A DNA stretch of 64,000 nt from positions 427,681 to 491,680 of the forward strand of contig JBBEBQ010000005.1 in the NCBI GenBank assembly GCA_040882285.1. Direction: 5' to 3'. The position numbers were made by a program, and so were the translations under genes. Shown here piece after piece: positions 69-16,550 of the stretch; positions within the stretch are counted from its first letter, which is position 1, and every line of letters begins with the position of its first letter. The DNA is from Gemmatimonadaceae bacterium (GTDB lineage Bacteria > Gemmatimonadota > Gemmatimonadetes > Gemmatimonadales > Gemmatimonadaceae). A model generated the notes under the pieces. It saw nothing but the letters and a program-made list of their open reading frames with translations. It did no database searches and was not told the DNA's origin.

Positions 69-1025
69 CTAGGCGAGCCCGGCCCCGCAGCTGCCGCAGA
101 AGCTGAACTGCTCCGGCATTCCCTTCGCCCCGCACTTGCCGCACGCCTTGTCGTACGGGCCCCAGAGGAACTCGCTGCTACCTTCGCCGGCGGCTTTGCG
201 CCGCAGCCCCATGAAGTCCACCTTCCGCTTCTCGACGAACGCCTGCATTCCCTCGTACGGCTCGAGCGTCGTGAAGTGCGTCGACAGCCAGTCGCGCGCG
301 TGGCCGACCGTCGCGTGCCACGACACCTCCTTCCAGTAGTTCACCTGCTGCTTGGTGTACCGGGTGCACTCGGGGAACTTCTCGAGCAGCTGGCCGACGA
401 GCGTGGCGACTTCCTCGTCGAGCTTCGCGCGGGGGACTACGCGATTCACCAGCCCCCATTCCAGCGCTTTCACCGCTGGAATCCGCGGATTGAGAAACAG
501 CATCTCGCGCGCGCGACGATCGCCTACGTGGATCGACAGCCATTGGGTCGCGCCGCCGCATGCTACGCTGCCGACGCTCGTTCCCACCTGGGCCAGGTAC
601 GTGTCGTCGGCCATGACCGCGAGATCGCACGCCAGCTGGGTCTCGTTTCCGCCGCCGACCGCGATCCCGTTGATGCGCGCGATCGTCACCTTGCCGCTCC
701 GGAGGATGCTCTCGATGTACTTGGCGAACAGCCCCATGTACTTGAAGTAGTCGTGCGGACTCCTGGTGTAGACGTTCGCGTACTCTTTTACGTCGCCGCC
801 GGTGCAGAACGCCTTGTCGCCGGCGCCGGTAAGCACGATCACCCCGACGTTGTCGTCGTTCGAGGCGTCGTCGACGGCGGTGATCAGCTCCTGCAGCGTG
901 GACGTCGTGTAACAATTGAACGACTCGGGGCGGTTGATCGTGATGCGGCCGACCCAGTCCTTCTTCTCGTACAGGATGTCCTTGAAGCCGAATCCGGCGG
1001 CGTCTTTCGGAGCGAAGTAGTTCAT
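69..1025 (-). CDS. Enoyl-CoA hydratase-superfamily ring hydrolase (BadI/Oah-like) with C-terminal zinc ribbon
   Basis: The 318-residue protein has a crotonase fold. Blocks such as GAGDKAFCTGGDVKEYA, AVGGGNETQLACDL and GGATQWL resemble the alicyclic ring-cleaving hydrolases BadI (2-ketocyclohexanecarboxyl-CoA hydrolase) and Oah/BamA (6-oxocyclohex-1-ene-1-carbonyl-CoA hydrolase), as I recall those families. The last 30 residues hold CGKCGAKGMPEQFSFCGSCG, two CxxC pairs forming a zinc ribbon that is not part of the usual crotonase domain. In-frame TTG (1031), GTG (1028) and ATG (1025) are all possible starts; ATG lies 9 nt after AGAGGA. Next to bcrCBAD it probably opens the ring after reduction. 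Which of the two substrates it uses is not decidable here. Confidence 0.8.
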   Translation of the reverse strand: MNYFAPKDAAGFGFKDILYEKKDWVGRITINRPESFNCYTTSTLQELITAVDDASNDDNVGVIVLTGAGDKAFCTGGDVKEYANVYTRSPHDYFKYMGLFAKYIESILRSGKVTIARINGIAVGGGNETQLACDLAVMADDTYLAQVGTSVGSVACGGATQWLSIHVGDRRAREMLFLNPRIPAVKALEWGLVNRVVPRAKLDEEVATLVGQLLEKFPECTRYTKQQVNYWKEVSWHATVGHARDWLSTHFTTLEPYEGMQAFVEKRKVDFMGLRRKAAGEGSSEFLWGPYDKACGKCGAKGMPEQFSFCGSCGAGLA

Positions 1026-1055
1026 CACCAAGGTTCCTCTGGCAGTCGTATGTGT

Positions 1056-2267
1056 TCAGCGCGTGTCGACCCTTAGCACGATCGCGGCGGCGCTGTCGCC
1101 TGCGGCACAGCCGGTGAATAGCCCATAACCTCCGCCGAGGGTCACCAGGTCCTCGATCAGCTCCATTATCGAGCGAAGCCCGGTCGGCCCCTGGGGGTGT
1201 CCCCACACGAGCGAGCACCCGTGCCGGTTCATCCGCTCGGCGTCGAACTTCAGCTCGCGGACGAAGTACACGTCGTTCACGGCGAACGCGGTGTGGGTCG
1301 TGACGCTCGCGAGATCGCTCGCCCGGATCCCCGCGCGCTCGAGCGCGAGCTGCGCGGCGGGGACGACCGCCATCGGCATGAAGCCCTTCCGTGCGCGCGC
1401 CTGCCCGTAGGAGAGGAGCTGTACGTCCACGTTGCCGTCGGGCGCCAACGAGCGGGCGCGCGCGCGGCCCGCCGTGAGCAGCATGGCGGCGTTCCCGTCG
1501 GCGGGGCGCGTCTGTGTGCCATACGTGACCGTACCGCCTTCGAGAACCGGCCGGAGTCCGGCAAGTCCCGCGGCCGTCGTAGGGAAAACCCCCTCGTCTC
1601 CGGTTACCGTCGCGAGGACCTTCTTCCCACGCGCGTCCCTGACCTCCACCGGATTCAACATGTAGCGGCCGAAAAACGCGCCACCGTCTACACGAGCGGA
1701 CTCGTACTGCCCGTACCTGAGCAGCGCGATCTCGTCCTGCGCCTCGCGCGTGATCCCGGCCTCGCGCGCCACGTTCTCCGCCGTCTGGAGCATGGATCCC
1801 TTGGCGTAGGGATCGTGGCCGAAGCTGTCGAGCACGATGTTCTCCGATTCGCCGGTACCGCCCGGAGCCGCCGGGTTCGGATAGAACACGTGCGGCCCGT
1901 TGCTCGTGCGGTCCGCGGTTGCGGCGAGATAGGTGCGCGCGCCGTTCGACTCGAGCTCCTGCGCGCCCTGCACGACGCAGCGCACCGAGGTCGCGCACGC
2001 CTGATTGATCGTCGGCCCGCTCAAGTGCCCCAGACCGGCGAGTCCCGCGAACCACGGCGCGCCGTAAAAGGAATGCTTGCTCGCGACGGTCGTGCCGAGA
2101 CACATGCCGTCGATGTCGGTCGCGGCGATGCCGCGCTCCGACAGCGCCCGCGCCGCCATCTCCGCGGCGAACGGGATCGGGGGTAGCGCGGCGAACGAGC
2201 CCTGCCACGCGCTGAAGGGCGTGCACCAGTATCCGCCGTACGGAATCCAGACATCGTTGAACTGCAC
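1056..2267 (-). CDS. Thiolase-family protein (divergent acetyl-CoA acyltransferase)
   Basis: This is a 403-residue thiolase-fold protein. The nucleophile region reads INQACATSVRC, matching the N-terminal active-site cysteine. The C-terminal part has GHPQGPTGLR in place of GHPxGATG, and GCAAGDSA where the second catalytic cysteine usually sits in CxGxG. Where thiolases have NEAFA it reads HTAFAVND. These changes suggest a divergent (SCP2/BbsB-like) thiolase acting on an unusual acyl-CoA. A long frame starts at TTG 2273, but AGGAGG (2274-2279) touches that codon and lies 6 nt before GTG 2267, so GTG is chosen. In this operon it would cleave a 3-oxoacyl-CoA formed after ring opening. Confidence 0.8.
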   Translation of the reverse strand: MQFNDVWIPYGGYWCTPFSAWQGSFAALPPIPFAAEMAARALSERGIAATDIDGMCLGTTVASKHSFYGAPWFAGLAGLGHLSGPTINQACATSVRCVVQGAQELESNGARTYLAATADRTSNGPHVFYPNPAAPGGTGESENIVLDSFGHDPYAKGSMLQTAENVAREAGITREAQDEIALLRYGQYESARVDGGAFFGRYMLNPVEVRDARGKKVLATVTGDEGVFPTTAAGLAGLRPVLEGGTVTYGTQTRPADGNAAMLLTAGRARARSLAPDGNVDVQLLSYGQARARKGFMPMAVVPAAQLALERAGIRASDLASVTTHTAFAVNDVYFVRELKFDAERMNRHGCSLVWGHPQGPTGLRSIMELIEDLVTLGGGYGLFTGCAAGDSAAAIVLRVDTR

Positions 2268-2315
2268 GCCCAACCTCCTGAGTGAAGTACCGGAAAGCGC
2301 GCACGGCGCCCCGGA

Positions 2316-2969
2316 TCAGCCGCTTCGTTTTGTGCCCTTGAGTCCGTGTAACAGCATATCGCGCATCTCCCGTCCTATCTGCTCGACCGAACCGTGCCGC
2401 GCGGGGTCGTACCACATGAAGATCCAGTTCAGCATTCCGAAGATGTACAGCGAGGCGTGCCGGCTCTGGCGGGTCTCCCTCGCGCCCGCCGCCGGCCCGT
2501 CGATCACCTGCGCGACCACGGAGGCCATGAGCCTGTAATACCGGCGCCGGATCTCCTCCGCGAGCTTGTACGGCTTCGGGCCGAGCGACTCGAGCTCGAA
2601 CGTGCACACCTTGAGCTCGTTGGTGTGCCGGGAGTAGAACTGGAGATGGCCTGTGAGCAGCCGCTCGAGCCGCTCCTCGGGCGTGCCCGGCTGCTCGGCG
2701 ATCTTCTCCTGCTGCTCGAGCAGCGCCGCGAACGTGCGGTACTGCAGCTGGAAGAGAAGATCTTCCTTGCTCGCGAAGTAGTGGTACAGTCCGGCCAGGC
2801 TCATGCCGAGAGCGGTGCTCAGCTCGCGCATCGTCATCGCGTTGAACCCGTTCTTCGCGATGAGCGCGGCCGCCTTGCTCAGCAGCCGGTCCAGCTTCTT
2901 CTGCGAGGACGGGCGGACGAGCCGGGACGGCCGGATGTCGTCGATCGGTGCTATGCGCGGCGCGCTCAT
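2316..2969 (-). CDS. TetR-family transcriptional regulator
   Basis: The 217-residue protein has an N-terminal helix-turn-helix (MTMRELSTALGMSLAGLYHY around residues 45-65) typical of TetR. Its C-terminal ligand domain resembles regulators of acyl-CoA metabolism. The start ATG overlaps the stop of the preceding molybdenum-hydroxylase gene (ATGA), so it is co-transcribed with the catabolic genes. A longer in-frame start would intrude on that gene. The ligand could be an aromatic or alicyclic acyl-CoA, and the likely operator is the palindrome at 11366-11381. Both points are inference. Confidence 0.88.
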   Translation of the reverse strand: MSAPRIAPIDDIRPSRLVRPSSQKKLDRLLSKAAALIAKNGFNAMTMRELSTALGMSLAGLYHYFASKEDLLFQLQYRTFAALLEQQEKIAEQPGTPEERLERLLTGHLQFYSRHTNELKVCTFELESLGPKPYKLAEEIRRRYYRLMASVVAQVIDGPAAGARETRQSRHASLYIFGMLNWIFMWYDPARHGSVEQIGREMRDMLLHGLKGTKRSG

Positions 2970-5860
2970 GCGGGGACTCCCTCGGTCGTCGTCCGTCCGG
3001 CGAGGCCGGACAGATTCGCCCCGGGATGCGCCGCCGCTCCGTCGCCTTGGGCGCGCTCCGCCAGGCCGCGCAGAATCTTCTCCGGAGACGCGGGTAGCTC
3101 CGTCACGCGCACGCCGCACGCATCGTAAATCGCGTTGGCGATGGCGCCGAGCACTGGTACCAGCGATCCCTCGCCGACTTCCTTCGCGCCGAACGGTCCA
3201 TTGGGCTCGAAGCTCTCCACCGCCGCGGTATGGATCTCGGGTGTCTCCTGCATCGTCGGGATCAGGTAGTCGTGGAGATTCGGGTTCATCGCGCTCCCTT
3301 TAGAGTCGAACAGCGTATCCTCGAGCAGCGTCTCGCCGAGCCCCATGATGATCGAGCCTTCCACCTGTCCGTGGAACGTCACGGGATTGATGACCGTGCC
3401 CGCGTCGCTGAAGTCCGTCACGCGATCCACGGACACCTGCCCCGTCTCCAGATCCACCGTGACTTCCGCGATCACGGTCGAGAAACTGTACGCCGGCGAC
3501 GTGCCGACCGCGCCTCCCTTGAAGTCGCCGCCGAGATCCTTCGGCGGTTGATACGATCCCGTCCCGACGACGGGACCGTGCCGGCCGAACGCGAGCCGCG
3601 CCGCGGCCGCCCACTCCATCTCCACCGCGGGCTCGTCCCGCGCGAAGATGCGTCCGCTCCGCGCCACGAGCGACGCGGGGTCGCGCGACAGCTCGCCGGC
3701 GGCGATCGCCAGCACCTGCGCGCGGACGTTGGCCGCCGCGCGCTGCACCGCGTGCCCGGCCATGAGCGTCACCCTGCTGGAGTACGAGCCCAGGTCCAGC
3801 GGACTCGTCGTCGTGTCGCAGTCCGCCAGCCAGACCCACTCGTACGGCACGCCCAGCTCTTCCGCGGCCATCTGCACGAGCACCGTGTCGGACCCTTGCC
3901 CGATCTCCGCCGCGGCTATGTGCAGCGACACGCCGGTGCCGTCCTCGTGCACGCGGATGACGGCGTTCGAGTGCGGGAAGTCCGACCGGTAGATGGGATA
4001 TCCCGCGCCCGAGACGAAGCCGCCGCAGCCGACGCCGATTCCCCGCCCGCGCGGCAGCTGGCCCTTCTTGTCCGGCCACTTCGAGGTGTCGCGCGCGCGG
4101 ACAAGCGTCGCCGTGAACTCGCACGAAGAGATGTCGAGCGCGTTGCACGTGCGCGTGTTCGGCAGCGTCGCGTTCCTGAGCCGGATGTCGATGGGATCGA
4201 GACCGATGTCCTCCGCGATCATGTCGAGCAGCGACTCGAACGCGAAGCGCGGCTGCGGCACGCCGTGGCCGCGGAACGCGCCGGACGCCGGCAGGTTGGT
4301 GTAGACGCGGATCCCCTCGTAGCGGTAGTTCGGCATCCGGTACAACGTGGGCAGCATCGAGCCGGCGTAGTACGCCGTGATCACGCCGTACGAGGTGTAC
4401 GCGCCGCCGTCCAGCACGACGCGCTGCTCCACTGCCGTGATCGTGCCGTCGCGCTTCACGCCGATCCTGAGGTCGATGTACTGCTTGTGGCGGCCGCGAA
4501 AGTGCCGGAACATCTCTTCGCGCGAATACTCCATCATCACCGGCCTGCCGGTGCGCTTCGCGAAGATCGCGGAGCAGTAATCGAGCGGGGTCGCCTCGGC
4601 CTTCGCGCCGAACCCGCCGCCCACCGGCGGCCGGATCACGCGGATGTTCCCCATCGGCATGCCGAGCATGCGCGAGAGCGAGCGGTGGACGTAGTGTGGC
4701 GTCTGCGTCGAGGTCCAGATCGTGAGCCGATCCGCGTGGTTTTCCCAGCGCGCGAGCGCAGCGTGCGGCTCCATCGGCGCCTGGTACGTGCGGTTCCCGA
4801 CGAATCGCTGCCCGCGTATGTGGTCCGCTTCCGCGAAGCCCTTCTCCACGTCGCCGAAGTGCCAGTCCACGCGCGTGTTGACGTTGCCGGCGTAACGCGG
4901 CTTCTCGGGGTGAATCACCGGCGCGCCCGGCGCCATCGCCGCCTCCGGATCGAACACGGCCGGCAGCTCCTCGAATTCCACCTCGATGAGCTGTATCGCG
5001 CGCAGCGCCGTCTCCTCGTCCACCGCCGCCACGGCGGCGATCTCGTCGCCCACGTAGCGCACGCGGTCACTGGCGAGCAGCTGCTCGTCCTCGCGCGCGG
5101 GGCTGACGCCGTACCACACATCCGGCACGTCGGCGGCGGTCAGCACGTCCACCACGCCCGGCAACGCGCGGGCCCGGGACACGTCGAGCCGCGTGATGCG
5201 CCCGTGCGCGATGGGGCTGCCGAGAATCTTGCCGTACAGCATGCCGGGCAGCCGCAGGTCGGCGGTGTACTTGGCGCGCCCGGTGACCTTGTCGGGACCG
5301 TCGTAGCGCGTGACGCCGCGGCCCACCACCGCGTGGTCGCGCTCCTGGTCGCTCTCGCCGTGCGCGCGCGGCTGCGTGTCGAGCGCGACTCCGTCGTGCT
5401 CTCTCCATCCCTCGACCGCGCTGACCATGCGGCCGTAGGTGCCGCACCGGCAGAGATTCCCGCTGAGCGCGGCCTTGATCTCGTCGCGCGACGGGTCGGG
5501 GTCGCGGTCGAGCAGCGCCTTCGCCGACATCAGCGCGCCGCTCGTGCAGTAGCCGCACTGGAGCGCGCCGTGCTTGACGAACGCTTTCTGCAGCGGGTGC
5601 AGCTCGCCGCCGCGCGCGAGGCCCTCCACCGTCGCGACCGACTTTCCGTCGGCGGCCGCGGCCAGCATCAGGCACGACGCCACCGGCTCCCCTTCCACCT
5701 GCACCGTGCACGCGCCGCAGTCTCCCGCGCCGCATCCCCGCTTTGCTCCGGTTAGGCCGAGATCGTCGCGCAGCACGGCGAGCAGCGTCGCGTTCGGGCG
5801 CACGGCGAAAGCGCGATCCTCGCCGTTCACGTTCAGCCGGATCATCAGCTCCCCGCTCAT
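2966..5860 (-). CDS. Fused [2Fe-2S] and molybdopterin subunit of a molybdenum hydroxylase (4-hydroxybenzoyl-CoA reductase-like)
   Basis: The 964-residue protein joins two normally separate subunits. Residues 1-155 are the small Fe-S subunit: C43, C48, C51 and C63 bind the plant-type cluster and C102, C105, C137 and C139 bind the second cluster. From about residue 175 it is the large xanthine-oxidase-family subunit, with PPVGGGFGAKAEA, GAFRGHGVPQ, EIGQGSDT and the catalytic-glutamate motif GAKEVGEGS. The start ATG overlaps the FAD-subunit stop by 4 nt. 4-Hydroxybenzoyl-CoA reductase (HcrCAB) feeds benzoyl-CoA reductase by removing the para-hydroxyl, which fits this position. A different purine-like or heterocyclic hydroxylase cannot be excluded. 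Confidence 0.85.
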   Translation of the reverse strand: MSGELMIRLNVNGEDRAFAVRPNATLLAVLRDDLGLTGAKRGCGAGDCGACTVQVEGEPVASCLMLAAAADGKSVATVEGLARGGELHPLQKAFVKHGALQCGYCTSGALMSAKALLDRDPDPSRDEIKAALSGNLCRCGTYGRMVSAVEGWREHDGVALDTQPRAHGESDQERDHAVVGRGVTRYDGPDKVTGRAKYTADLRLPGMLYGKILGSPIAHGRITRLDVSRARALPGVVDVLTAADVPDVWYGVSPAREDEQLLASDRVRYVGDEIAAVAAVDEETALRAIQLIEVEFEELPAVFDPEAAMAPGAPVIHPEKPRYAGNVNTRVDWHFGDVEKGFAEADHIRGQRFVGNRTYQAPMEPHAALARWENHADRLTIWTSTQTPHYVHRSLSRMLGMPMGNIRVIRPPVGGGFGAKAEATPLDYCSAIFAKRTGRPVMMEYSREEMFRHFRGRHKQYIDLRIGVKRDGTITAVEQRVVLDGGAYTSYGVITAYYAGSMLPTLYRMPNYRYEGIRVYTNLPASGAFRGHGVPQPRFAFESLLDMIAEDIGLDPIDIRLRNATLPNTRTCNALDISSCEFTATLVRARDTSKWPDKKGQLPRGRGIGVGCGGFVSGAGYPIYRSDFPHSNAVIRVHEDGTGVSLHIAAAEIGQGSDTVLVQMAAEELGVPYEWVWLADCDTTTSPLDLGSYSSRVTLMAGHAVQRAAANVRAQVLAIAAGELSRDPASLVARSGRIFARDEPAVEMEWAAAARLAFGRHGPVVGTGSYQPPKDLGGDFKGGAVGTSPAYSFSTVIAEVTVDLETGQVSVDRVTDFSDAGTVINPVTFHGQVEGSIIMGLGETLLEDTLFDSKGSAMNPNLHDYLIPTMQETPEIHTAAVESFEPNGPFGAKEVGEGSLVPVLGAIANAIYDACGVRVTELPASPEKILRGLAERAQGDGAAAHPGANLSGLAGRTTTEGVPA

Positions 5861-6735
5861 TGCACGGAGCCTCCGGCGCGCGCCACGGCTTCCTGGAACG
5901 CGCGGCGAGCCAGCACGCGGACCAGCTCCCTCCGGTAATCGGCCGATCCGCGCACGTCGCTGATAGGCAGCGCGGCCTGCGCGCACAGCTCGCCGGCCGC
6001 CTCGAAGAGCGCGGCGGAGGGCGTCTCCCCCTCGAGCAGCGCCGCGGCGCGCGCGACGGTGAGCGGAGTCGGAGAGACCGCGCCAAGCGCGATGCGTGCC
6101 TCCGAGACTCTGTCCCCGTCGAGCGTCACCCTGGCCGCGACCGCCGCGACGGCGAGCGCCGGACCGCGCCGCCTGGCGAACCGCTGGTAGCTCGCGCCGG
6201 AGTGCGGCGGCTGCGCCGGAAGCACGATCTCCACCAGCACTTCCCCCGGGCCAAGCGCGGTCGCGCGCACGCCGGTGAAGAAGTCCACGGCGTCGAGCTC
6301 GCGCGCGCCCGCCGTGCCGACGAGCCGCACCCGCGCCGCGGATACGATCGCGGCGGGCGGAGTGTCGGCGCACGGCACCGCGCGGCAGAAATTTCCGCCG
6401 ATGGTCGCCATACTCCGGATCTGCGGGCTCCCGATGGCGCGCGCCGCGTCGGCGAGCGCGGGGACCAGCGCGCGCACGAGCGGCGACGCGGCGATCTCGG
6501 CGATCGTCGTGAGCGCGCCGATCCGCAGCGCTCCCTTATCCTCCGAGATCCCCCGCAGCTCGGGGACCGACTCGAGCGCGATCAGGTGTTGCGCCGTCTC
6601 CCGCGCGCGCTGGTAGTCGGGAATCAGCTCGGTTCCGCCGGCCAGAAACGCCGCGTCGCGCCCGTACCGCAGCCCGAGCGCGCACGCCTCGGCCAGGCTC
6701 GCCGGGCGGTGCCAGGCGATGGGCGCGATCGTCAT
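5857..6735 (-). CDS. FAD-binding medium subunit of the molybdenum hydroxylase (HcrB/CoxM-like)
   Basis: The 292-residue protein contains the two FAD motifs of this family, LAGGTELIPD near residue 35 and TIGGNFCRAVPCADTPP near residue 110. It passes electrons between the Fe-S clusters and the external partner. The Thauera 4-hydroxybenzoyl-CoA reductase beta subunit has an insertion of about 40 residues carrying an extra [4Fe-4S] cluster; no such cysteine-rich insertion is visible here and the protein is shorter. ATG 6735 is chosen over longer frames because it begins the conserved domain and lies 28 nt after bcrD. Partner of the fused subunit encoded immediately downstream. Confidence 0.85.
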   Translation of the reverse strand: MTIAPIAWHRPASLAEACALGLRYGRDAAFLAGGTELIPDYQRARETAQHLIALESVPELRGISEDKGALRIGALTTIAEIAASPLVRALVPALADAARAIGSPQIRSMATIGGNFCRAVPCADTPPAAIVSAARVRLVGTAGARELDAVDFFTGVRATALGPGEVLVEIVLPAQPPHSGASYQRFARRRGPALAVAAVAARVTLDGDRVSEARIALGAVSPTPLTVARAAALLEGETPSAALFEAAGELCAQAALPISDVRGSADYRRELVRVLARRAFQEAVARAGGSVQ

Positions 6736-6763: not shown

Positions 6764-7621
6764 CTATGCTGTAGCGGCGGCCCACGCGACGCCTCCCTGG
6801 CCCAGCTTCCGGTACCTGAATCCACCGCACAGCGCGGCGCCGATGGCGCCGGCGAAGATCGCGTCCGCATGCGTCACGACTTCGAGCGGGGCGCTGGTCT
6901 TGCCCGCCTTCTTGGCGAGGCCGTCGCGCAGCGCGCCGAGCAACCCGACGTCCGACGCGAGCCCTCCGCTCACGAACGCGGGGCCGTCGAACTGGAGCGA
7001 ACGCAGCAGCCGCACGAACCGGTCGGCCATGCTCTCGTGCACCCCGCGCAGGATGTCCTGCGTCGTGATTCCGCGCGACACCATGTTGATGACGTCGGTC
7101 TCCGCCAGCACCGCGCAGATCGAGCTCACCTTCTCCGGCTGCCGCGCCTCCAGCGAAAGCTGCCCGATCTCGTCGTGTGAGACGCCGAGGTAGCGCGCGA
7201 TGTTCTCGAGGAACTGGCCGGAGCCGGACGCGCACTGGCTGGTCATCTTGTAATCCAGCACGCGGCCGCGCGCATCCATCGCGACGGCGCGGGTGTGCAG
7301 CGCGCCCACGTCGAGCACCGCGCGGGCGCGCGGATCGAGGAACAGCGCGCCGCGCGCGTGGGTGGTCATGCCGTAGAAGTGTCCCGTCGCGAATGGAAAA
7401 TCCGCTCCCTCGCCGGTGGTGGCGACGTAGTGGATCTCGCCCACGTCCGCCGCCGACACCGCGGCCTCGAACACCTCGTCCACGACCTTGGCGACTTCCC
7501 GCCGCCGGATGCGCGCCGACTCCTGCGACAGGACCGTTCCATCGATGTCGCCGTCCGTGGACATTATCGCCACCTTGACGGCGCCGCTGCCCGCGTCGAT
7601 TCCTGCCGAGATGTGTGTCAT
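6764..7621 (-). CDS. bcrD: Benzoyl-CoA reductase subunit D (ATPase/activator module)
   Basis: This 285-residue ASKHA-fold ATPase belongs to the BcrD/BadG branch. It starts with [15 protein letters not shown] (phosphate loop) and has the [10 protein letters not shown] variant, where BcrA has [10 protein letters not shown]. The Fe-S ligand regions are [18 protein letters not shown] and [19 protein letters not shown]. With BcrA it shares a [4Fe-4S] cluster and couples hydrolysis of two ATP to electron transfer onto the BC module. The length matches Thauera and Rhodopseudomonas BcrD/BadG. Its start overlaps the bcrA stop by 4 nt. Confidence 0.92.
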
Positions 7622-8889
7622 GCCGCTATCCTGCTGGCGAAGAGCGCCGCGCCAAGCGCGCCCGTGTAGATGCTGTCCGGGGAGATGTTGAGCGTCCGCT
7701 CGCCGTAGTTCTCTCCGACGAGATCACGAATCGCGTGCACGGCGGCGGGATTCTTGGCGACTCCGCCGGTGAACGTGAACTCGTCGGACACTCCCCCGGA
7801 GCGGGCCAGCAGGCTCATCGCGCGAATGACGATCGCGCGGTGCAGCCCGGCGAGAATGTCCTCGCGCTTCTCGCCGAGCCCGAGACGCTCCCGCAGCTCG
7901 GCGCCGGCGAACACGGTGCACGTGGAGTTGATCTTCACGCACCGCTTCGATTGCTCGGCGAGCGGCCCCAGCTCGTGCAGGCCGAGGTTCATCTCGTCGG
8001 CGATGTAGCCGAGGTAGCGACCGCAGCCGGCGGCGCACCGGTCGTTCATCTGGAAGTTCGTCACGATCCCCTGCTCGTCCACCTGGATCGCCTTGGTGTC
8101 CTGTCCGCCGATGTCGAGGACCGTGCGCGTGCCGGGGAACATCGCGTGCGCGCCGAGACCGTGACACAGGATCTCGGAGCGGATCTGTTCCTTCGGGAAG
8201 GGGAGGCGCGCGCGACCGTAGCCGGTTCCCACCGTGTACGACGGCTCGAGGTCCCTGGCCACGGCGTACTCGACCGCGTCGGCGAGCCCCGGCGGGTTGC
8301 CCACGCGCCGCAGCGCGTCCCCGATGTGATCGCGGAAGTCGAGGTCGAGCGGCTCGTTCTCCACGCGGATGATGCACTTGTCGTACACGCCCACCAGCCG
8401 GTCGAAGCTGACGCCCGCGGGATCGGCGAGCTGCTCGGCGATACGCATGAACGCCGAGCCCGCCGCGTCGCGGAAGAAATCGGAGCGCAGCATCGGCGGC
8501 TGCTTGAAGCGCTGCTCCTCCTCCACCGCGATCCGCCGGCAGATCTCCTCGATGCTCGCCCTGAACGCGGACTTGAGGTGGTCCGGCGCCGAGCGCTCGG
8601 TCTCCTCGAGCATCAGCTGCTCCAGCCTGCGCAGCTGCTGGAGTATCTGCTCCATCACGAAGGCGCGGCGCAAGCGGCTCACCATCGCCGCCGTCTCCGT
8701 CGCCTGGAGCTGCTGCTCGACGAGGCCGAAGCGCGCGTTGATGAATCCCTCCGTCCTCGCCACCGCGGCCGCGAGGTCGTAGTTGGAGCGCGAGTTCGTG
8801 ATGCCGCGCCCGAGCACCTCGCAGTTCTCGTCGAGGATGACCGCCTTGGTGGTGGTCGAGCCCAGGTCTATGCCGACGACGCAGCTCAT
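7618..8889 (-). CDS. bcrA: Benzoyl-CoA reductase subunit A (ATPase/activator module)
   Basis: The 423-residue ASKHA ATPase has [15 protein letters not shown] at its N-terminus and [13 protein letters not shown] in the second half. Cysteines for the bridging [4Fe-4S] cluster lie in [13 protein letters not shown] and [11 protein letters not shown]. Compared with the short BcrD it has an extra region of about 150 residues between the two ATPase halves, as in Thauera BcrA. ATG 8889 overlaps the bcrB stop; longer in-frame extensions would read through bcrB and are rejected. It delivers low-potential electrons to the ring-reducing BC subunits. Confidence 0.92.
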
Positions 8890-10160
8890 GCTGTCTTCCC
8901 GAGTCGCCGCGCGTCGATCATCTGGAAGTAGCTCTCCAACCGGTTCTTGATGTTCGCGGCGGAGAAGTAGCGCGGATCCACCAGGTCGGACTCGATGAAC
9001 GCTCCGGGTATGCCGGTGCGCTTCTCGACTTCGCGGAGGATCATCAGCTGACCCGCCGAGAAGGAATTGCACGATTTCACCGAGTTGATCAGGAATCCGT
9101 CGGCCTGATATTCCTCGATGTAGCGCGAGATCATGTCGATCCGCGACGGCAGGTTCAGGTTGGTGTAGCAGCCGCTGCAGTAGTCGGCGAGGGTGCCGAG
9201 CGGATCGTCCGGATCGTGCCGGAAGCCGAAGTCGTACGTGCCGCCGACTTTCGTGTACGTGGACGCGACCACGACTGCCTTCTCGTCGGAGAACATCTTC
9301 CAGAAGTCGCGGAACGACGTCCAGTTCGGCGGGCCTTCGACGACCAGGCGATAGCGCTCCCCCTCGAGCGGTCCGTCGGGGGTGATCGGTCCGAGCCCGA
9401 GCGCCGCGCGCTCCTCGACTTCCGCCCGCAGGGTCCGGTAGTACTCGACGCCCTCCTCGGTTCCGCGGAACGCGCTGAAGATCGGGCCGACGTAGTACAC
9501 GGTGCCGAAGTAGCCGTCGATCGGACTCGGCCTGTTCTTTCCGGCCTGGAGCACGGCCACCAGGTCGTCCTCGGCTTGCGCGGACAGCGCGAGATTATGG
9601 CGCAGCTTGTCTTCGTCGTACTTGCGGCCGGTCGCTTTCTCGAGCGCGGGAATCACCTGCTCCCTGAGCTGCCGCAGCATGTAGCTGCGATGCTCCGGCT
9701 CGAGCACGCCGTCACCCTGATACGGCACATGGAACATGACCGTCGGGCAGTCGTATTCCTCGCGCAGCAGCTCGAACCACTTCATGAACGTGTAGCAGCC
9801 CGTGTACGAGAGTAGCAGCAGGTCCGGCTTCGGCAGCTTCAAGCCGCCCGGACCCAGGTTGCCCGAGCGCATCATCCCGATGTCGCACTTCACGTAGGTG
9901 CAGACGTCCTCCGAATGGCCCGCGCGCTCCGCCTCCGCGATGTAGTCGCCGGACAGCTTGCGCATCCCCGACTGCAGCGCGTTGATCTCCGGCAGCACCG
10001 GCAGCGCGTCGAAGGAGCGGATCAGCTCGGTGAGATTCCCCGGAACGAATGTGTACACCACCGGCTCGCCCGTCTCCGGAGCGCGGGCCAGCCGCTCGAA
10101 ATGGCGCGCGATCATCTCCTTCTGCAGCAGCATCGAGCGGTCTTTCAGCGCTTCGGCCAT
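8886..10160 (-). CDS. bcrB: Benzoyl-CoA reductase subunit B (substrate-reducing module)
   Basis: The 424-residue protein belongs to the HgdB/BcrB family of Fe-S dehydratase/reductase subunits. Cysteines at conserved-looking positions include [35 protein letters not shown] and [13 protein letters not shown]; some of these should ligate the double-cubane or [4Fe-4S] clusters of the BC module. Length fits the family (about 430-440). Its ATG shares one base with the bcrC stop (TGATG). With BcrC it performs the Birch-like two-electron reduction of benzoyl-CoA to a cyclohexadiene-carboxyl-CoA. Confidence 0.92.
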
Positions 10161-11344
10161 CAGGCGGCCCCCCAGAGCTTGATCGAGTCGGCGAACGTTC
10201 CGGCCTGCTCGCGGAATTGCTGGAATTGTCCGGTGTTCTCGGCGTACTTGAACGCGATGCACGGGATGCACGCCTTCTCCGCGCCGTTGCGGAGCATCGG
10301 CTGGTCGAGCAGCGCGGGGTCGCAGAAGCTCGGCGTCGCGAAGATGATCCCGTCGGCGCCGGCGGCGGCGACGCGCTCCTGCATGACGCGCTTCTTCCCC
10401 AGCGGATCGCTCTCGTACAGCACCGACGTGCACTGGTCGCTGGAGACGAACGCCTCCGCGAGCGCGCGCACGGGATCGCCGTCGAGCGGCACGTCGCGGA
10501 GGAGGAACCGGTTGCCGAGGAGGAAGTCGTCGTCCACGACGTAGCATCCGGCGCGCTCGATCGAGATGATGAGGCCCAGCGGCGGCTGCTCGCAGAAGGC
10601 GCCGACCACCACCACGCGGCTGTTGTCGCGCGGCCGCCCGGGCTCCGCCTCCACCGCGGCGAGGTACTCCCGCGCCAGCTCGATGAATTCTTCCGGGGGA
10701 ATCATCTCCCCCGCGCGAAGCAGCACGTACAGCTCCTCGCTTGGCAGGTCCCACGGGCGCTCGCGGCGCGCCGTGTACAGCGCGCGAACCATCGCCCTGG
10801 TCTGGTTGTACAGCTCCACCGACGCGCGCAGGTCGGCGTCAGTCGGGTGATGGCCTGATACGGCTCCGAGGTCGTCCACGAGCCGCCGAAGCTCGCTCTC
10901 CCAGAAGTCGGCTCCCACCTCCCTGTCCGGGGTCTGCGGAACGTCGATGTAGCGGACGTACGCTTCGGGGTAGAGCAGCTTCCACATCCCCGAGAGGTTG
11001 CGGATCACGTCGCATGTCGACGGGAACAGCACCGCCGACAGCATGTCCAGCCGCCCGGACTGCGCCAGCTCGATGACCGAGCGCGGCAAATGACAGATGT
11101 AGGACTGGTAGAAGGCGTCGCCGCGGATGATCTCGAGCCGGTCGCCGCCGCCGTGGATGCCCACAGGCAGCAGCCCGCACGCGTGGATGATCTCGCGCGG
11201 CACGTACACGGGCAGGTAGCCCGCCGCCTTGCATCCCGGATGCTCGGCGAGCCAGCGGCGGACGGCACCGAAGTCGAGGTCGTCGTAGATGTCGCGGGCC
11301 TTTTCCACCAGCGCGGCGCGCGTCGGGGCGTGTCCAGCGGCCAT
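10160..11344 (-). CDS. bcrC: Benzoyl-CoA reductase subunit C (substrate-reducing module)
   Basis: First gene of the minus-strand operon, 394 residues, HgdB/BcrC family. Conserved-type cysteine blocks include IIHACGLLPVGIHG, FPSTCDVIRNLSGMWK and ACIPCIAFKYAENTGQFQQ. The order C-B-A-D is the one described for Thauera aromatica and for badDEFG of Rhodopseudomonas. ATG 11344 follows a good ribosome site (GAGGGAGG, about 7 nt spacing); a TTG two codons upstream is in frame but worse placed. The leader contains the palindrome proposed as the TetR operator. Confidence 0.92.
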   Translation of the reverse strand: MAAGHAPTRAALVEKARDIYDDLDFGAVRRWLAEHPGCKAAGYLPVYVPREIIHACGLLPVGIHGGGDRLEIIRGDAFYQSYICHLPRSVIELAQSGRLDMLSAVLFPSTCDVIRNLSGMWKLLYPEAYVRYIDVPQTPDREVGADFWESELRRLVDDLGAVSGHHPTDADLRASVELYNQTRAMVRALYTARRERPWDLPSEELYVLLRAGEMIPPEEFIELAREYLAAVEAEPGRPRDNSRVVVVGAFCEQPPLGLIISIERAGCYVVDDDFLLGNRFLLRDVPLDGDPVRALAEAFVSSDQCTSVLYESDPLGKKRVMQERVAAAGADGIIFATPSFCDPALLDQPMLRNGAEKACIPCIAFKYAENTGQFQQFREQAGTFADSIKLWGAA

Positions 11345-11365: not shown

Positions 11366-11381
11366 TCGAACGGACGTTCGA
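11366..11381. promoter_or_regulatory. Perfect 16-bp palindrome, probable TetR operator
   Basis: TCGAACGGACGTTCGA is two 7-bp half sites around GA, located between the divergent bcrC and dehydrogenase/hydratase genes. Such palindromes are typical TetR-family operators. It directly abuts TATACT (11382-11387), a good plus-strand -10 hexamer, so bound repressor would cover that promoter. A consensus TTGACA on the minus strand lies at 11413-11418, but no good -10 follows at standard spacing. One operator could therefore control both divergent units. Confidence 0.6.
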
Positions 11382-11387
11382 TATACT
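11382..11387 (+). promoter_or_regulatory. Putative -10 element (TATACT) for the dehydrogenase/hydratase gene
   Basis: TATACT matches the bacterial housekeeping -10 consensus at five of six positions. It lies about 95 bp upstream of ATG 11483 and directly next to the palindrome. No convincing -35 hexamer is visible 17 bp upstream, so the assignment is tentative. Confidence 0.4.
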
Positions 11388-11482
11388 ACATATGGGCTTG
11401 GCCGGCGGCCGGTGTCAATAGCGATTGCTCCAGCCGCCCCTGGAACGCACGTTGAGCCTCAGATCAACCGGAGAACTCGGCC

Positions 11483-13504
11483 GTGGGATACCGCTTCAGT
11501 GGTTTCCAGATCGACAAGATCGGAGTCATCGGGTCCGGGCAGATCGGCCCCGACATCGCGCTGCACTTCGCCAAAGCGATGCACACCCGGGACGTCCCCG
11601 TCGTCGTGGTGGACGTTTCCGCCGAGGCGGTCGAGCGCGGGCGCGCCAAGGCCGACCGGAAGATCGCCAAGGGTCGGGAGAGCGGCGCATTCACCCCCGA
11701 AGCCGCGGAGAGCATGGCCCGTCTCCTCTCGTTCACCAGCGACTACGAGCAGCTGCGCGGCGCCGGCCTCGTCATCGAGGCGGCCACCGAGAACCTCGAG
11801 GTGAAGCGCCGCATCTTCGCGGAGCTGGAAGAGCTGTGCGGACCCGAAGCGATCCTGGCGTCCAACTCGTCGCACATCGAGCCGGACGAGCTTTTCGCGG
11901 AGCTCGGCACGCGCGCCCGCGCGCTGGTCATTCATTATTTCTTCCCGGCGGACCGCAACCATCTGGTGGAGATCATCCCGGGAAGCCAGACCGCGCCCGT
12001 GCTGGTCGACGCCCTGCTGGCGCTGTACGAGGAGATCGGCAAGGTGCCCGTCAGGGTCGGCGGGCGGTACGGCTTCGCCGTGAACCCCGTGTTCGAGGGG
12101 CTATTCCTCGCCGCGGCCCTCGCGGTGGAAGCCGGCCTGGGCTCCGTCAAGGAAGTCGATGCCGCGGCCCGCGCTGCACTCGGCATGGGGGTGGGGCCGT
12201 TCACGGCGATGAACCTCACCGGCGGCAACCCAATCACCGATCACGCGCTGGACGAGATGACGTCGAAGCTGGGACCGTGGTGGCGCTCGCCGCAACTAAT
12301 GAAGGAGGCGATGGCCTCCGGCAAGCCGTGGGACGTGCCCGGGCGGGACGAGAAAGTCGAGCTGTCGCCGGAGCGGGAGGAGCGGATCCGCGACACCATG
12401 CGCGGCGCGTACTTCGGACTCGTGGGACAGATACTCGACAGCGGAATCATCTCTCTCGCCGACCTCGAGGTCGCGGTCGAGACCGGGCTCGCGATGCGGG
12501 CGCCGTTCGAGCTGATGAACGAGCTGGGAGCTCCCCGGGCGCTGGCGCTGGTAGAAGCGTACGCCGCGGATCATCCCGGCTTTGCCGTGCCGCGCTGCAT
12601 CTCGGCGCAAGCCAGCGCGGGGCGGCCGTTCCGCGTCTCGCACGTGCTCAGGCGCGACACGGGCGACGTGGCCGTGCTCACGATTCGCCGCCCGCGGGTC
12701 CTCAACGCGCTCAACGAAGACGTGTTCGAGCAGCTGTACGAACACTTCGTCGCATTACGTTCGGACCCGAGAATCGCAGCCGTAGTGCTGACCGGTTTTG
12801 GCACGAACTCGTTCGTCTCCGGCGCCGATGTGAACTTCCTGGCGCGGATCGAGAGTCCGGTGCACGGCACGAAGACAGCGGACCGTTCGAAGCGCGCCGG
12901 GAATCTGATCGAGCAGCTGGGGAAACCCGTCGTGTGCGCGCTCAACGGCTCGGCGTTGGGAGGGGGCAATGAGCTCGCCATGTGCTGCACCGCGCGCGTC
13001 GCGCGCAAAGGTCTCGCACTGGCGGCCGCACAGCCCGAAGTGAACCTCGGCATCATCCCCGGCGCTGGTGCGACCCAGCGCCTCCCGCGACTGGTGGGGA
13101 TGGAGAAGGCCGCCGAGATGCTGCGCACGGGGCGTGGCCTGTCGGGAGCGGAGGCGGTCGCATGCGGCCTGATCCGCGAGGAGGTGGACGGCAACGTCGT
13201 GGAGCGGGCGATCGAGCTCGCGCGCGCAGCCGCCCGTGGCGAGGTCACGCTGCCGGTGCTCGATCCAGGCCCGATGCCGACGCCCGCGATTCTTCCCCCG
13301 GTAGAGATAGGACACCGGAGCCGGGCCATCGACGGACTGCTGTGCCGCGCGCTACTCGAAGGCTGCAACCAACCGCTTGCCGACGGCCTGCAGGTCGAAT
13401 CCGAGATGTTCGGGGCGTGCTGCGCGACGGAGGACATGCGGATCGGCGTCGGGAACTTCCTCGCCAACGGCCCGCGGTCGAAGGCGGAGTTCGTGCATCG
13501 GTGA
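11483..13504 (+). CDS. Bifunctional 3-hydroxyacyl-CoA dehydrogenase / enoyl-CoA hydratase (HAD-ECH order)
   Basis: The 673-residue protein has an N-terminal NAD-binding 3-hydroxyacyl-CoA dehydrogenase (GVIGSGQIGPDIA near residue 15; catalytic-His region IHYFFPADRNHLVEIIPG) and a C-terminal crotonase domain from about residue 395. Both hydratase glutamates appear present (ALGGGNELAM and PEVNLGIIPGAGATQRLPR). This order is opposite to E. coli FadB and resembles FadN or archaeal fusions. A further C-terminal tail of about 70 residues follows; its last 46 codons recur at 24710-24850. Divergent from bcrC, it probably oxidises ring-cleavage products such as hydroxypimelyl-CoA, or performs the hydration and oxidation before ring cleavage. 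Substrate is inferred. Confidence 0.88.
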   Translation: MGYRFSGFQIDKIGVIGSGQIGPDIALHFAKAMHTRDVPVVVVDVSAEAVERGRAKADRKIAKGRESGAFTPEAAESMARLLSFTSDYEQLRGAGLVIEAATENLEVKRRIFAELEELCGPEAILASNSSHIEPDELFAELGTRARALVIHYFFPADRNHLVEIIPGSQTAPVLVDALLALYEEIGKVPVRVGGRYGFAVNPVFEGLFLAAALAVEAGLGSVKEVDAAARAALGMGVGPFTAMNLTGGNPITDHALDEMTSKLGPWWRSPQLMKEAMASGKPWDVPGRDEKVELSPEREERIRDTMRGAYFGLVGQILDSGIISLADLEVAVETGLAMRAPFELMNELGAPRALALVEAYAADHPGFAVPRCISAQASAGRPFRVSHVLRRDTGDVAVLTIRRPRVLNALNEDVFEQLYEHFVALRSDPRIAAVVLTGFGTNSFVSGADVNFLARIESPVHGTKTADRSKRAGNLIEQLGKPVVCALNGSALGGGNELAMCCTARVARKGLALAAAQPEVNLGIIPGAGATQRLPRLVGMEKAAEMLRTGRGLSGAEAVACGLIREEVDGNVVERAIELARAAARGEVTLPVLDPGPMPTPAILPPVEIGHRSRAIDGLLCRALLEGCNQPLADGLQVESEMFGACCATEDMRIGVGNFLANGPRSKAEFVHR

Positions 13505-13881: not shown

Positions 13882-14208
13882 ATGTGCCTGGGCATTCCTG
13901 GCAGGATTGTCGAGCTTCGGGACGACGGCGGATTTCCCATGGGAGTGGTGGACTTCGGCGGCGTGCGGCGCGAGGTGTGCCTGTCGTACGTGCAGGCCGA
14001 CGCCGGCGTGGGGGACTACGTGATCGTGCACGTCGGCTTCGCGATCTCGAAGGTCGACGAATCCGAGGCGCGCCGCACCTTCGAAGTGCTCCGTGAGATG
14101 AGCCGACTCGACGAACTCGACTGGATTGGCGAGGTGGCCGATGCGGCGCTCGCCGGCCAATCCGCTGCGCCCGCGCCGGGCGGAGCTACGCTGACCCAAG
14201 GAACCTGA
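13882..14208 (+). CDS. hypC: Hydrogenase maturation chaperone HypC
   Basis: The protein begins [12 protein letters not shown], the invariant HypC start in which Cys2 is essential for carrying the Fe(CN)2CO precursor together with HypD. At 108 residues it is somewhat longer than typical HypC (75-95), with an Ala/Pro-rich tail after about residue 85. First gene of the hydrogenase cluster, 37 nt upstream of hypD. Confidence 0.93.
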
Positions 14209-14245
14209 CCATGGCAACCACCGCGGCAGCGCGGGGCCGGGCACC

Positions 14246-15370
14246 GTGAAGTACCTCACCGAGTACCGAGACGCGACGATCGCGCGCCCGCTGATCGAGC
14301 GGATCAAGCGCACGGCCACGCGCCCGTGGACGCTCATGGAAGTGTGCGGTGGCCAGACGCATACCATCGTGCGGCAGGGGCTCGACGAGCTGCTCGAGGG
14401 CGCGATCGAGATGATCCACGGACCCGGTTGCCCGGTGTGCGTGACCCCGCTCGAGCAGATCGACAAGGCGCTCATGCTTGCCGCGCGTCCCGACGTGATC
14501 TTCACCTCGTTCGGTGACATGCTGCGCGTGCCGGGCAGCGACTGCGACCTGCAACAGGTTCGCGCGCGCGGCGGCAACGTGCGCATCGTGTACTCGCCCC
14601 TCGACGCGCTCGAGATCGCGCGTCGCAACCCGGACCGCGAAGTGGTCTTCTTCGCCGTCGGGTTCGAGACCACGGCCCCCGCGAACGCGATGGCCGTCTG
14701 GCGGGCCCGCGAGCTCGGCGTGCCGAACTTCAGCGTGCTCGTCTCGCACGTCACTGTCCCGCCCGCGATCAGCGCGATCATGCAATCGCCGGACAACCGC
14801 GTGCAGGGGTTTCTCGCCGCCGGCCACGTCTGCGCGGTGATGGGATGGACGGAATACGAGCCCCTCGCGATGCGATATGGCGTCCCGATCGTCGTCACGG
14901 GGTTCGAGCCGCTCGATATTCTCGAGGGGATGCTGATGGCGGTGCAGCAGCTCGAGGCCGGCCGACACATCGTGGAGAACCAATACGTGCGCTCCGTGCG
15001 GCGTGAGGGAACGCCGGCGGCCCGCATGCGCGTGCAGGAAGTCTTCGAGCTCGCCGACCGGAAATGGCGCGGCATTGGGGAGATCCCGATGAGCGGCTTG
15101 CGGCTCCGGCCGGAGTTCGCCGCCTTCGACGCGGAGCTGAAGTTCGGCCTGGGCGACGTTCACGTGAACGAATCCTCCGAGTGCCACGCCGGCGAAGTGC
15201 TCACGGGAAAGCTCAAGCCGCCGCGATGCCCCGCGTTCGGCACCCGCTGCACTCCCGAGCGCCCCCTTGGCGCGCTCATGGTATCCACCGAGGGTGCGTG
15301 CGCGGCGTACTACCATCTCGCGAAGTACCGCGAGTCCGGCGACCCCGCGGCGGCAGGAGCGGTGTCGTGA
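14246..15370 (+). CDS. hypD: Hydrogenase maturation protein HypD
   Basis: The 374-residue Fe-S protein is the scaffold on which the Fe(CN)2CO group is assembled with HypC and HypE. Recognisable blocks are [12 protein letters not shown] (the CGGQTH motif), [11 protein letters not shown] and [12 protein letters not shown], plus late cysteines for the [4Fe-4S] cluster ([20 protein letters not shown]). Start is GTG 14246; the nearby ATG 14211 is out of frame. The stop overlaps the hypE start. Confidence 0.94.
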
Positions 15371-16422
15371 CGGCCGTGAGTTCGGTCACGCTCGCCTGCC
15401 CGGCGCCGCTCGATGCTTCCGACCGTGTGCAACTGGGCCACGGCTCCGGCGGGAAGATGAGCGCGGCGCTGCTTCGCCAGCGCTTCCTTCCGGCGCTCGC
15501 CAACGAGGCCCTGGCGCAGCTCGGCGACGGCTCGGTGGTGAATGTCGCGGGAGTCGAGGTCGTGGTCTCGACCGATACGTTCGTCGTGAGTCCGCTGGAG
15601 TTCCCGGGAGGCGACATCGGGTCGCTCGCCGTGCACGGCACGCTGAACGACGTCGCCATGATGGGGGCGCGGCCCGTGTGCCTGACGGCTGGCTTCGTGC
15701 TCGAGGAAGGGCTCCCTCTCGATATCCTCGACCGCATCGTTCGCTCGATGGCGGATGCGGCGAGCCTGGCGGGGGTGCCCGTCGTGGCCGGTGACACGAA
15801 GGTCGTGGAGCGCGGCAAGGCCGATGGTCTCTACATCAATACCACTGGCATCGGGGCGGCCGACGCGCGATTCCGCCCGGCGCCGGAGCGCGCGCGGGCC
15901 GGCGATGCAGTGATCGTGAGCGGCGCCATCGGCCGCCATGGCATGGCGATCATGGCCGCGCGTGAAGGGCTGGCGTTCGAGACGACGATCACCAGCGACA
16001 GTACCTGCCTGGTCGGCCTCGTCGAGCGCCTGCGCACGGCGCGCGTCGACGTGCACGTGCTGCGCGATCCAACGCGCGGCGGCGTGGCGAGCGCGCTCAA
16101 CGAGATCGCCGCAGCATCCGGGGTCGGTGTCGAAATTGACGAGACCGTACTTCCCGTTCCGGACGACGTACGCGCTGCGTGCGAAGTGCTCGGGCTCGAC
16201 CCCCTTTATGTAGCCAACGAGGGCATCCTGCTCGCCTTCGTCCCCGCCCGCGACGCCGAGCGTGTGCTGGCGGCGCTGCGCTCGCACCCTCTGGGTGCAG
16301 GCGCGCTCCAGATCGGCCGCGTGATCGCGGCGCACCCCGGCGTGGTGGCCCTGCGCACCTCGCTTGGCGGTACACGCATCGTTGACCTTCTGCCGGGGGA
16401 CCAGCTCCCTCGCATATGCTAG
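15367..16422 (+). CDS. hypE: Hydrogenase maturation protein HypE (carbamoyl dehydratase)
   Basis: The 351-residue PurM-like ATPase converts the carbamoyl group placed by HypF on its C-terminal cysteine into thiocyanate for the active-site iron. It ends in the diagnostic PRIC, with the modified Cys as the last residue. Other family blocks are [28 protein letters not shown] and [17 protein letters not shown] 15367 overlaps the hypD stop (GTGA); longer in-frame extensions would run through hypD. Confidence 0.94.
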
Positions 16423-16550
16423 GGGAACATTTCACTCCGGATTCACGGCGATTCGCGGTGCGCGGATAACCCGTACGTCCATTCCTCCTTTCCCTTACAG
16501 TCGCACCGCCCATCGTGTCGTAAGGTGACTCACGCCATCCCGAGGTTCCG

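Follow-up and report, generated by a model that had tools for sequence, protein, structure and literature searches.

A conserved palindrome upstream of the benzoyl-CoA reductase operon of a Gemmatimonadaceae bacterium as the probable operator of an operon-encoded TetR repressor

The window, by which we mean the whole stretch of 64,000 nucleotides analysed, carries a run of minus-strand genes from bcrC to oah and, diverging from it, a plus-strand gene for a 3-hydroxyacyl-CoA dehydrogenase/enoyl-CoA hydratase (HAD/ECH) (Table 1). All four genes bcrCBAD score over their NCBIfam cut-offs, which identifies a class I benzoyl-CoA reductase of the bcr type. From bcrC to tetR most neighbouring genes overlap by a few bases, and the ATG of tetR overlaps the stop codon of hcrCA as ATGA; given this overlap and the close packing of the genes, tetR is most likely a member of the bcr operon, in which it is gene 7. 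We read bcrCBAD-hcrB-hcrCA-tetR-thiolase-oah as probably forming one transcript. Inside this operon (2966-6735, minus strand) a 4-hydroxybenzoyl-CoA-reductase-like enzyme with fused iron-sulfur and molybdenum subunits is encoded. In the divergent HAD/ECH gene the dehydrogenase comes first and the crotonase second, the reverse of the FadB/FadJ model order. The bcr region is adjoined by genes for [NiFe] hydrogenase subunits together with hypC, hypD and hypE (13882-19404, plus strand).

Table 1. Features of the bcr region, in window coordinates
Feature	Position	Strand	Basis or remark
oah (label used here), crotonase like the ring hydrolases badI/oah/menB	69..1031	-	TIGR03210/TIGR03200 below cut-off
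thiolase-like gene, downstream of tetR	1056..2273	-	TIGR01930 below cut-off
tetR, proposed repressor	2316..2969	-	PF00440 and PF17932 over cut-off; pLDDT 90.2
hcrCA (label used here), fused 2Fe-2S and molybdenum subunit, 4-hydroxybenzoyl-CoA-reductase-like	2966..5860	-	Pfam; TIGR03194 924.5 bits, cut-off 994.55; start from gene junctions
hcrB (label used here), xanthine-dehydrogenase-family FAD subunit	5857..6735	-	XdhB models best, all below curated cut-offs
bcrD	6764..7621	-	TIGR02261, 331.8 bits, cut-off 312.85
bcrA	7618..8889	-	TIGR02259, 581 bits, barely over cut-off 578
bcrB	8886..10160	-	TIGR02260, 699.7 bits, cut-off 486.55; start from gene junctions
bcrC, benzoyl-CoA reductase subunit C	10160..11344	-	TIGR02263, 491.1 bits, cut-off 421.15
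operator palindrome TCGAACG-GA-CGTTCGA	11366..11381	.	15/15 close relatives, upstream of bcrC, centre variable
TATACT, proposed -10 of divergent promoter	11382..11387	+	adjoins operator
TTGACA, proposed -35 of bcrC promoter	11413..11418	-	31 bp before operator
divergent fused HAD/ECH gene	11483..13504	+	PF02737, PF00725 and PF00378 over cut-off

The sequence TCGAACGGACGTTCGA is present exactly as the original prediction had written it, as an inverted repeat without mismatch composed of 7-bp arms and a 2-bp spacer. It is placed in the 138-bp gap between the ATG of bcrC, 21 bases away, and the start of the plus-strand gene, and the hexamer TATACT directly adjoins its end. The genome scan for the 16-mer which the prediction had proposed returned one perfect copy (TCGAACGNNCGTTCGA) in 2.89 Mb. 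Taken alone the palindrome is ordinary and within chance: the window contains 69 perfect inverted repeats with arms of at least 7 and spacers of up to 6 bases, and shuffling of the 138-bp gap produced such a repeat in 115 of 2000 cases. With up to two mismatches there are 40 matches genome-wide against 40 for the reversed control, a count on which a multi-site regulon in this genome was rejected. Both one-mismatch sites of the genome are covered by open frames, which carries little weight in a GC-rich genome. The palindrome is considered functional because it is kept across genomes, unremarkable as the repeat itself may be.

Among 395 sampled genomes of the phylum, sixteen have a BcrC match (E<=1e-90). 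Identity is 75-100% in fifteen of these and 47-48% in G037. At all fifteen close loci, which come from related genomes and are thus non-independent samples, the operator is found upstream of bcrC, perfect in thirteen cases and with one outermost base changed in two; a chance palindrome is rejected on this conservation. In G037 tetR is beside bcr, yet the operator was not found upstream of bcrC. The two central bases vary (GA, TA, AA and AT in plus orientation) and the arms are kept, which fits a palindrome contacted by a protein. The spacing from the matched BcrC start differs by over 100 bases among loci, which does not fit a fixed leader element. The gene order bcrC-B-A-D-hcrB-hcrCA-tetR-thiolase-oah is the same in all 12 clusters for which enough sequence was retrieved, that of the window among them; the contigs of G244 and G282 stop short of tetR, in G225 tetR and bcrC are on separate contigs, and in G117 bcrC itself is split over two contigs.

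The bcr loci show some further features. Distant BcrB/BcrA-like genes (about 24-36% identity) are found downstream of oah (L060:798-4697; L143, L144 and L146 beyond 15500). G315 carries a second tetR (L122, G315:C60), 85% identical to that of the window and accompanied by hcrCA, thiolase and oah, while its bcr cluster has another one. In L142 a BcrA match at 95% is beside a tetR of the hcrCA-thiolase-oah kind.

In the direction of bcrC, 14 of the 15 bcr loci have a TTGAC box whose distance before the operator is 28-31 bp, compared with 128 of 30000 random 16-base slots; the -10 positions on this side vary among loci. On the other side, 11 of 14 rows have a hexamer TATACT, TATAAT, TAGAAT or TAGGAT directly against the operator, including G067 with TATAAT (the fifteenth locus, L106, was dropped by a position filter). 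A consensus scan of the region found no sigma-70 promoter and recognised no -35 on the plus side, so that the putative promoter elements rest on their conservation. The -10 hexamer of the original prediction does adjoin the palindrome, but the plus-strand promoter is weak by consensus, having no recognisable -35. The supposed divergent beta-oxidation unit consists of one fused gene, with hypC 377 bases further on; HAD/ECH lies divergent beyond the operator at 14 of 15 loci, and it was looked for there in G067 and not found. As G067 keeps the operator and the abutting TATAAT, this locus counts against the hexamer being a divergent promoter. Upstream of the operator, on the bcrC strand, G067 has a 409-codon open frame (L098:1-1500).

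The protein encoded by tetR belongs to the TetR family, with a helix-turn-helix domain (TetR_N, PF00440, 52.1 bits) and an all-helical ligand domain (TetR_C_24, PF17932, 70.7 bits), both over cut-off. The structure alignment consisted of the window protein and 55 of the 79 named loci described below. The predicted structure (pLDDT 90.2) matches TetR structures with Z scores of up to 22.7. The top structural match is 3ccy, which has no named function, and the nearest folds include the acyl-CoA regulators AibR (an isovaleryl-CoA regulator), KstR2 and FadR. The window genome has four further TetR_N proteins, none with an operator nearby (best 4-6 mismatches). At the start of the window's own tetR no operator is found nearby either (best 5 mismatches), hence autoregulation rests on the operon reading.

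A closely similar TetR (E<=1e-45) is present in 19 of the 395 genomes, namely in 13 of the 15 with a close bcrC and in 6 of the 380 others. The latter are G014, where tetR-thiolase-oah stands at a contig start, and five genomes with box-type regulators, in which the operator precedes the matched tetR start by 55-123 bp, the mismatches numbering 0, 0, 1, 1 and 2. The box assignment covers four of these: BoxC and BoxB are over cut-off among the neighbours in G132, BoxC is so in G055, and boxC is also matched in G141 and G185; the fifth regulator genome is G372. A gene of the benzoate-CoA-ligase family, over cut-off, is found upstream of tetR in G132 and G141.

Among 60 relatives surveyed there were 17 TetR loci at a greater distance (31-38% identity). 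Fifteen of these have the operator close to the start of tetR with no more than one mismatch; in the sixteenth (G044) the matched stretch itself contains a perfect copy, and near tetR of the seventeenth (G037) no operator was found. In the three clusters of this type that were looked at, G050, G042 and the named locus L214, the best matches of neighbouring genes include models for PaaA, PaaC or PaaD, and a neighbour in G036 matches BoxB; none of these matches reaches its curated cut-off. Of the 60 genomes, 23 have the TetR (E<=1e-20) and 16 of these contain a perfect site, against 2 of the 37 without it; in two of the sixteen, G023 and G045, the copy and the TetR are on different contigs. G032, which has no window-type TetR, carries 13 perfect copies (e.g. 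L090:4453, L091:4150, L092:4161 and L093:4063); of five copies read, two are intragenic (in an FHA-domain gene and an acetate-CoA-ligase gene) and one precedes a 352-codon frame.

The TetR alignment was also used to scan named genomes, and the best 79 loci among the matches listed come from Gemmatimonadota, Planctomycetota, Acidobacteriota, Krumholzibacteriota, Myxococcota and other phyla. Two tetR matches were too close to a contig end to be counted; among the remaining 77 listed, 34 have the operator with at most one mismatch at -300 to +60 of tetR and 43 have no such site near the tetR start. The corresponding figure for background windows is 8 of 2862, and seven control palindromes gave 0. 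Several of the sites away from tetR are at operon starts of clusters which have tetR further downstream. Twelve loci among the matches listed carry hcrCA and tetR without a close bcr, a block which is present in other phyla. Eight of them have a site with at most two mismatches some 1.0-2.2 kb upstream of the hcrCA match, in three the contig begins inside hcrCA, and in L162 no site was found within two mismatches. Of the loci with tetR-bcrCBA, L213 of Planctomycetota has a one-mismatch site before tetR and L215 of Parvularculaceae one about 3 kb before tetR-bcrCBA, while in L205 and L206 of Myxococcales no site was found within one mismatch. In a branch of Planctomycetota TetRs (such as L173, L178 and L192) the gene frequently diverges from one for a crotonase similar to oah (48-61% identity), and an operator-like site is often present between the two.

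TetRs with a recognition helix of the type SL[AGS]G.Y.Y are mostly accompanied by the operator, exceptions including L176, L197, L207 and L216, whose nearby copies have three mismatches. No site within two mismatches was found near TetRs with the helices RSLASFYHLF, RGLASFYHLF, RSLAAFYNYF or KSLATAYNYF. This helix-site comparison is weakened by the scan itself, which used a peptide pattern overlapping the recognition helix. In a quick tree of 106 rows, from which duplicates and short proteins had been dropped and in which cluster labels were assigned by hand, the bcr- and box-type regulators group together (SH-aLRT 99), nested in a larger group with the hcr type (SH-aLRT 100); the outgroup is poor, its branches being very long, which leaves the root uncertain.

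From these data the palindrome is probably the operator of the gene-7 TetR, which would repress the bcr operon, and probably the divergent gene too, until relieved by an aromatic acyl-CoA. The comparison supports this TetR-operator model well, and the window TetR appears to be a PaaR-like repressor. We infer that the protein binds here, and that it represses rather than activates. A TetR dimer on the operator would cover the start region of the presumed bcrC promoter, the TTGACA of which lies 31 bp upstream, and would also sit directly against the -10-like hexamer of HAD/ECH, so that one site could shut both. Filling of the TetR pocket by an aromatic acyl-CoA, most likely benzoyl-CoA, would make the repressor leave the DNA and allow transcription of bcrCBAD-hcrB-hcrCA-tetR-thiolase-oah, and probably of the divergent gene. 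As tetR is inside the operon which it would repress, the loop could be autoregulated with no separate tetR operator. The original prediction had proposed the core of this scheme, with one palindrome holding ring reduction and beta-oxidation together under an acyl-CoA-responsive TetR of the same regulon. Its dependence on conservation in related bcr loci is answered by the 15 close loci, and the link to the TetR, which the prediction drew from nearness, is now backed by the co-occurrence of site and regulator across pathways and phyla; less firm are the ligand and the joint control of both sides, HAD/ECH not having been found at G067 and the plus-strand promoter being weak.

As to the ligand, we give benzoyl-CoA itself slightly better than an even chance. 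It is the best guess because the bcr and the box pathways both have it as their substrate, because the predicted fold is close to those of TetRs including AibR, PfmR, KstR2 and FadR, and because PaaR is reported to answer to phenylacetyl-CoA and MbdR to 3-methylbenzoyl-CoA (PMC4424350).

The TetR could bind the operator and control the bcr operon alone, HAD/ECH being controlled separately, which we regard as possible, at perhaps one chance in four. The weak consensus of the plus-strand promoter points in this direction, as do the box-type and more distant relatives, where the site precedes tetR itself, and the conservation of operator and abutting TATAAT in G067 with no HAD/ECH found beyond makes bcr-only control more plausible. 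Against it are the -10-like hexamer adjoining the operator in most rows compared and the HAD/ECH gene lying divergent beyond the site at all close loci except G067. It is improbable that the TetR is a passenger and the palindrome serves another regulator. This reading would draw on the lack of a site near the window's own tetR, and TetR binding is itself deduced from comparison, but the site adjoins tetR in otherwise different clusters of several phyla.

The palindrome matches perfectly the actinobacterial LexA box, TCGAAC-N4-GTTCGA, and a LexA/SOS box would put DNA damage rather than aromatics in control. Besides this exact fit there are the thirteen perfect copies in G032, where one LexA-domain gene has a one-mismatch copy upstream. 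In the window genome, by contrast, CGAACN4GTTCG occurs only twice, neither time at lexA nor at recA, and the best sites upstream of the two stronger of three LexA-domain matches and of recA have 5 and 4 mismatches, respectively. As neither copy is near recA or these two LexA-domain genes, and with the site following the TetR genes of one subfamily, we rate a LexA box as very unlikely. A hairpin in the leader RNA of bcrC, or mere chance, would agree with the location of the palindrome within the leader and with the abundance of such repeats in the window, but is hardly credible. The arms are kept as sequence and not as pairing alone, with compensatory arm changes in none of the 15 bcr loci, the spacing from the matched BcrC start differs by over 100 bases among loci, and the same letters are found upstream of operons with other genes.

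Beyond the single locus, the TetR-operator reading can be extended with moderate confidence: the operator word CGAACG-NN-CGTTCG and one TetR branch (SL[AGS]G.Y.Y) may have been kept across phyla while the regulator moved among aromatic-CoA pathways, the pocket and not the DNA code having changed. The pathways that appear to share the word are those for phenylacetyl-CoA (paa-like), aerobic benzoyl-CoA (box), hydroxybenzoyl-CoA-reductase-like enzymes (hcr) and anaerobic benzoyl-CoA reduction (bcr). Since box- and bcr-type regulators group together, both probably read benzoyl-CoA. The interest is in an operator code common to several aromatic-CoA pathways. If it holds true, bcr-carrying Gemmatimonadota gain a defined switch for anaerobic aromatic breakdown, a motif becomes available for finding aromatic regulons in uncultured genomes, and the TetRs would represent a natural series with one DNA code and probably different aromatic-CoA ligands.

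In the open-access literature, outside of which most subscription papers lie, no TetR regulator-operator pair for a bcr-type benzoyl-CoA reductase was found among the matches listed. For the Gram-positive bad-ali clusters a paper on that pathway reports TetR-like genes, the text available naming no operator for them (PMC9795900), another paper speculates on a TetR for 4-methylbenzoate in Magnetospirillum (PMC4268860), and in a 2026 survey on phenylacetate pathways PaaR is dealt with through its gene context, the word 'operator' being absent from the main text (PMC13186573). Other regulators reading acyl-CoA esters in benzoate and cyclohexanecarboxylate pathways are reported to be BzdR, BoxR and BadR (PMC4424350, PMC9795900); they differ from the window TetR in belonging to the XRE or MarR families, and the operator reported for BadR is CAAN4TTG (PMC9795900). 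AibR, KstR2, PfmR and FadR are among the nearest solved folds (Z 17.7-22.6), but serve other pathways and have 19-26% identity to the window TetR.

MbdR of Azoarcus sp. CIB, a TetR repressor of the anaerobic 3-methylbenzoate genes with 3-methylbenzoyl-CoA as inducer, has operators of the form ATACN10GTAT at several promoters and was, according to its authors, the first TetR-family regulator described for the anaerobic catabolism of aromatics (PMC4424350). The window TetR shares its fold (4uds, Z 17.3, rmsd 3.3 over 184 residues, 17% identity) and presumably the control of anaerobic aromatic catabolism by an aromatic acyl-CoA, whereas the sequence is distant (E 3.8e-5) and the operator unrelated. 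The MbdR operator was looked for by eye in the 138-bp gap, and the sole ATAC (11383-11386) has no GTAT ten bases on.

A further likeness is to PaaR of Thermus thermophilus (TTHA0973), described as a TetR repressor of phenylacetate genes with the operator consensus CNAACGNNCGTTNG (PMC6651687), for which phenylacetyl-CoA is the reported effector (PMC4424350). TTHA0973 was compared by operator consensus and gene context. The window differs in that tetR is inside the operon and the neighbours are bcrCBAD and oxygen-free ring reduction, not paa genes. Both regulators are of the TetR family, some relatives of the window TetR have the same or a similar site beside Paa-like genes (below cut-offs), and positions 11367-11380 fit CNAACGNNCGTTNG exactly, as the only match in the window.
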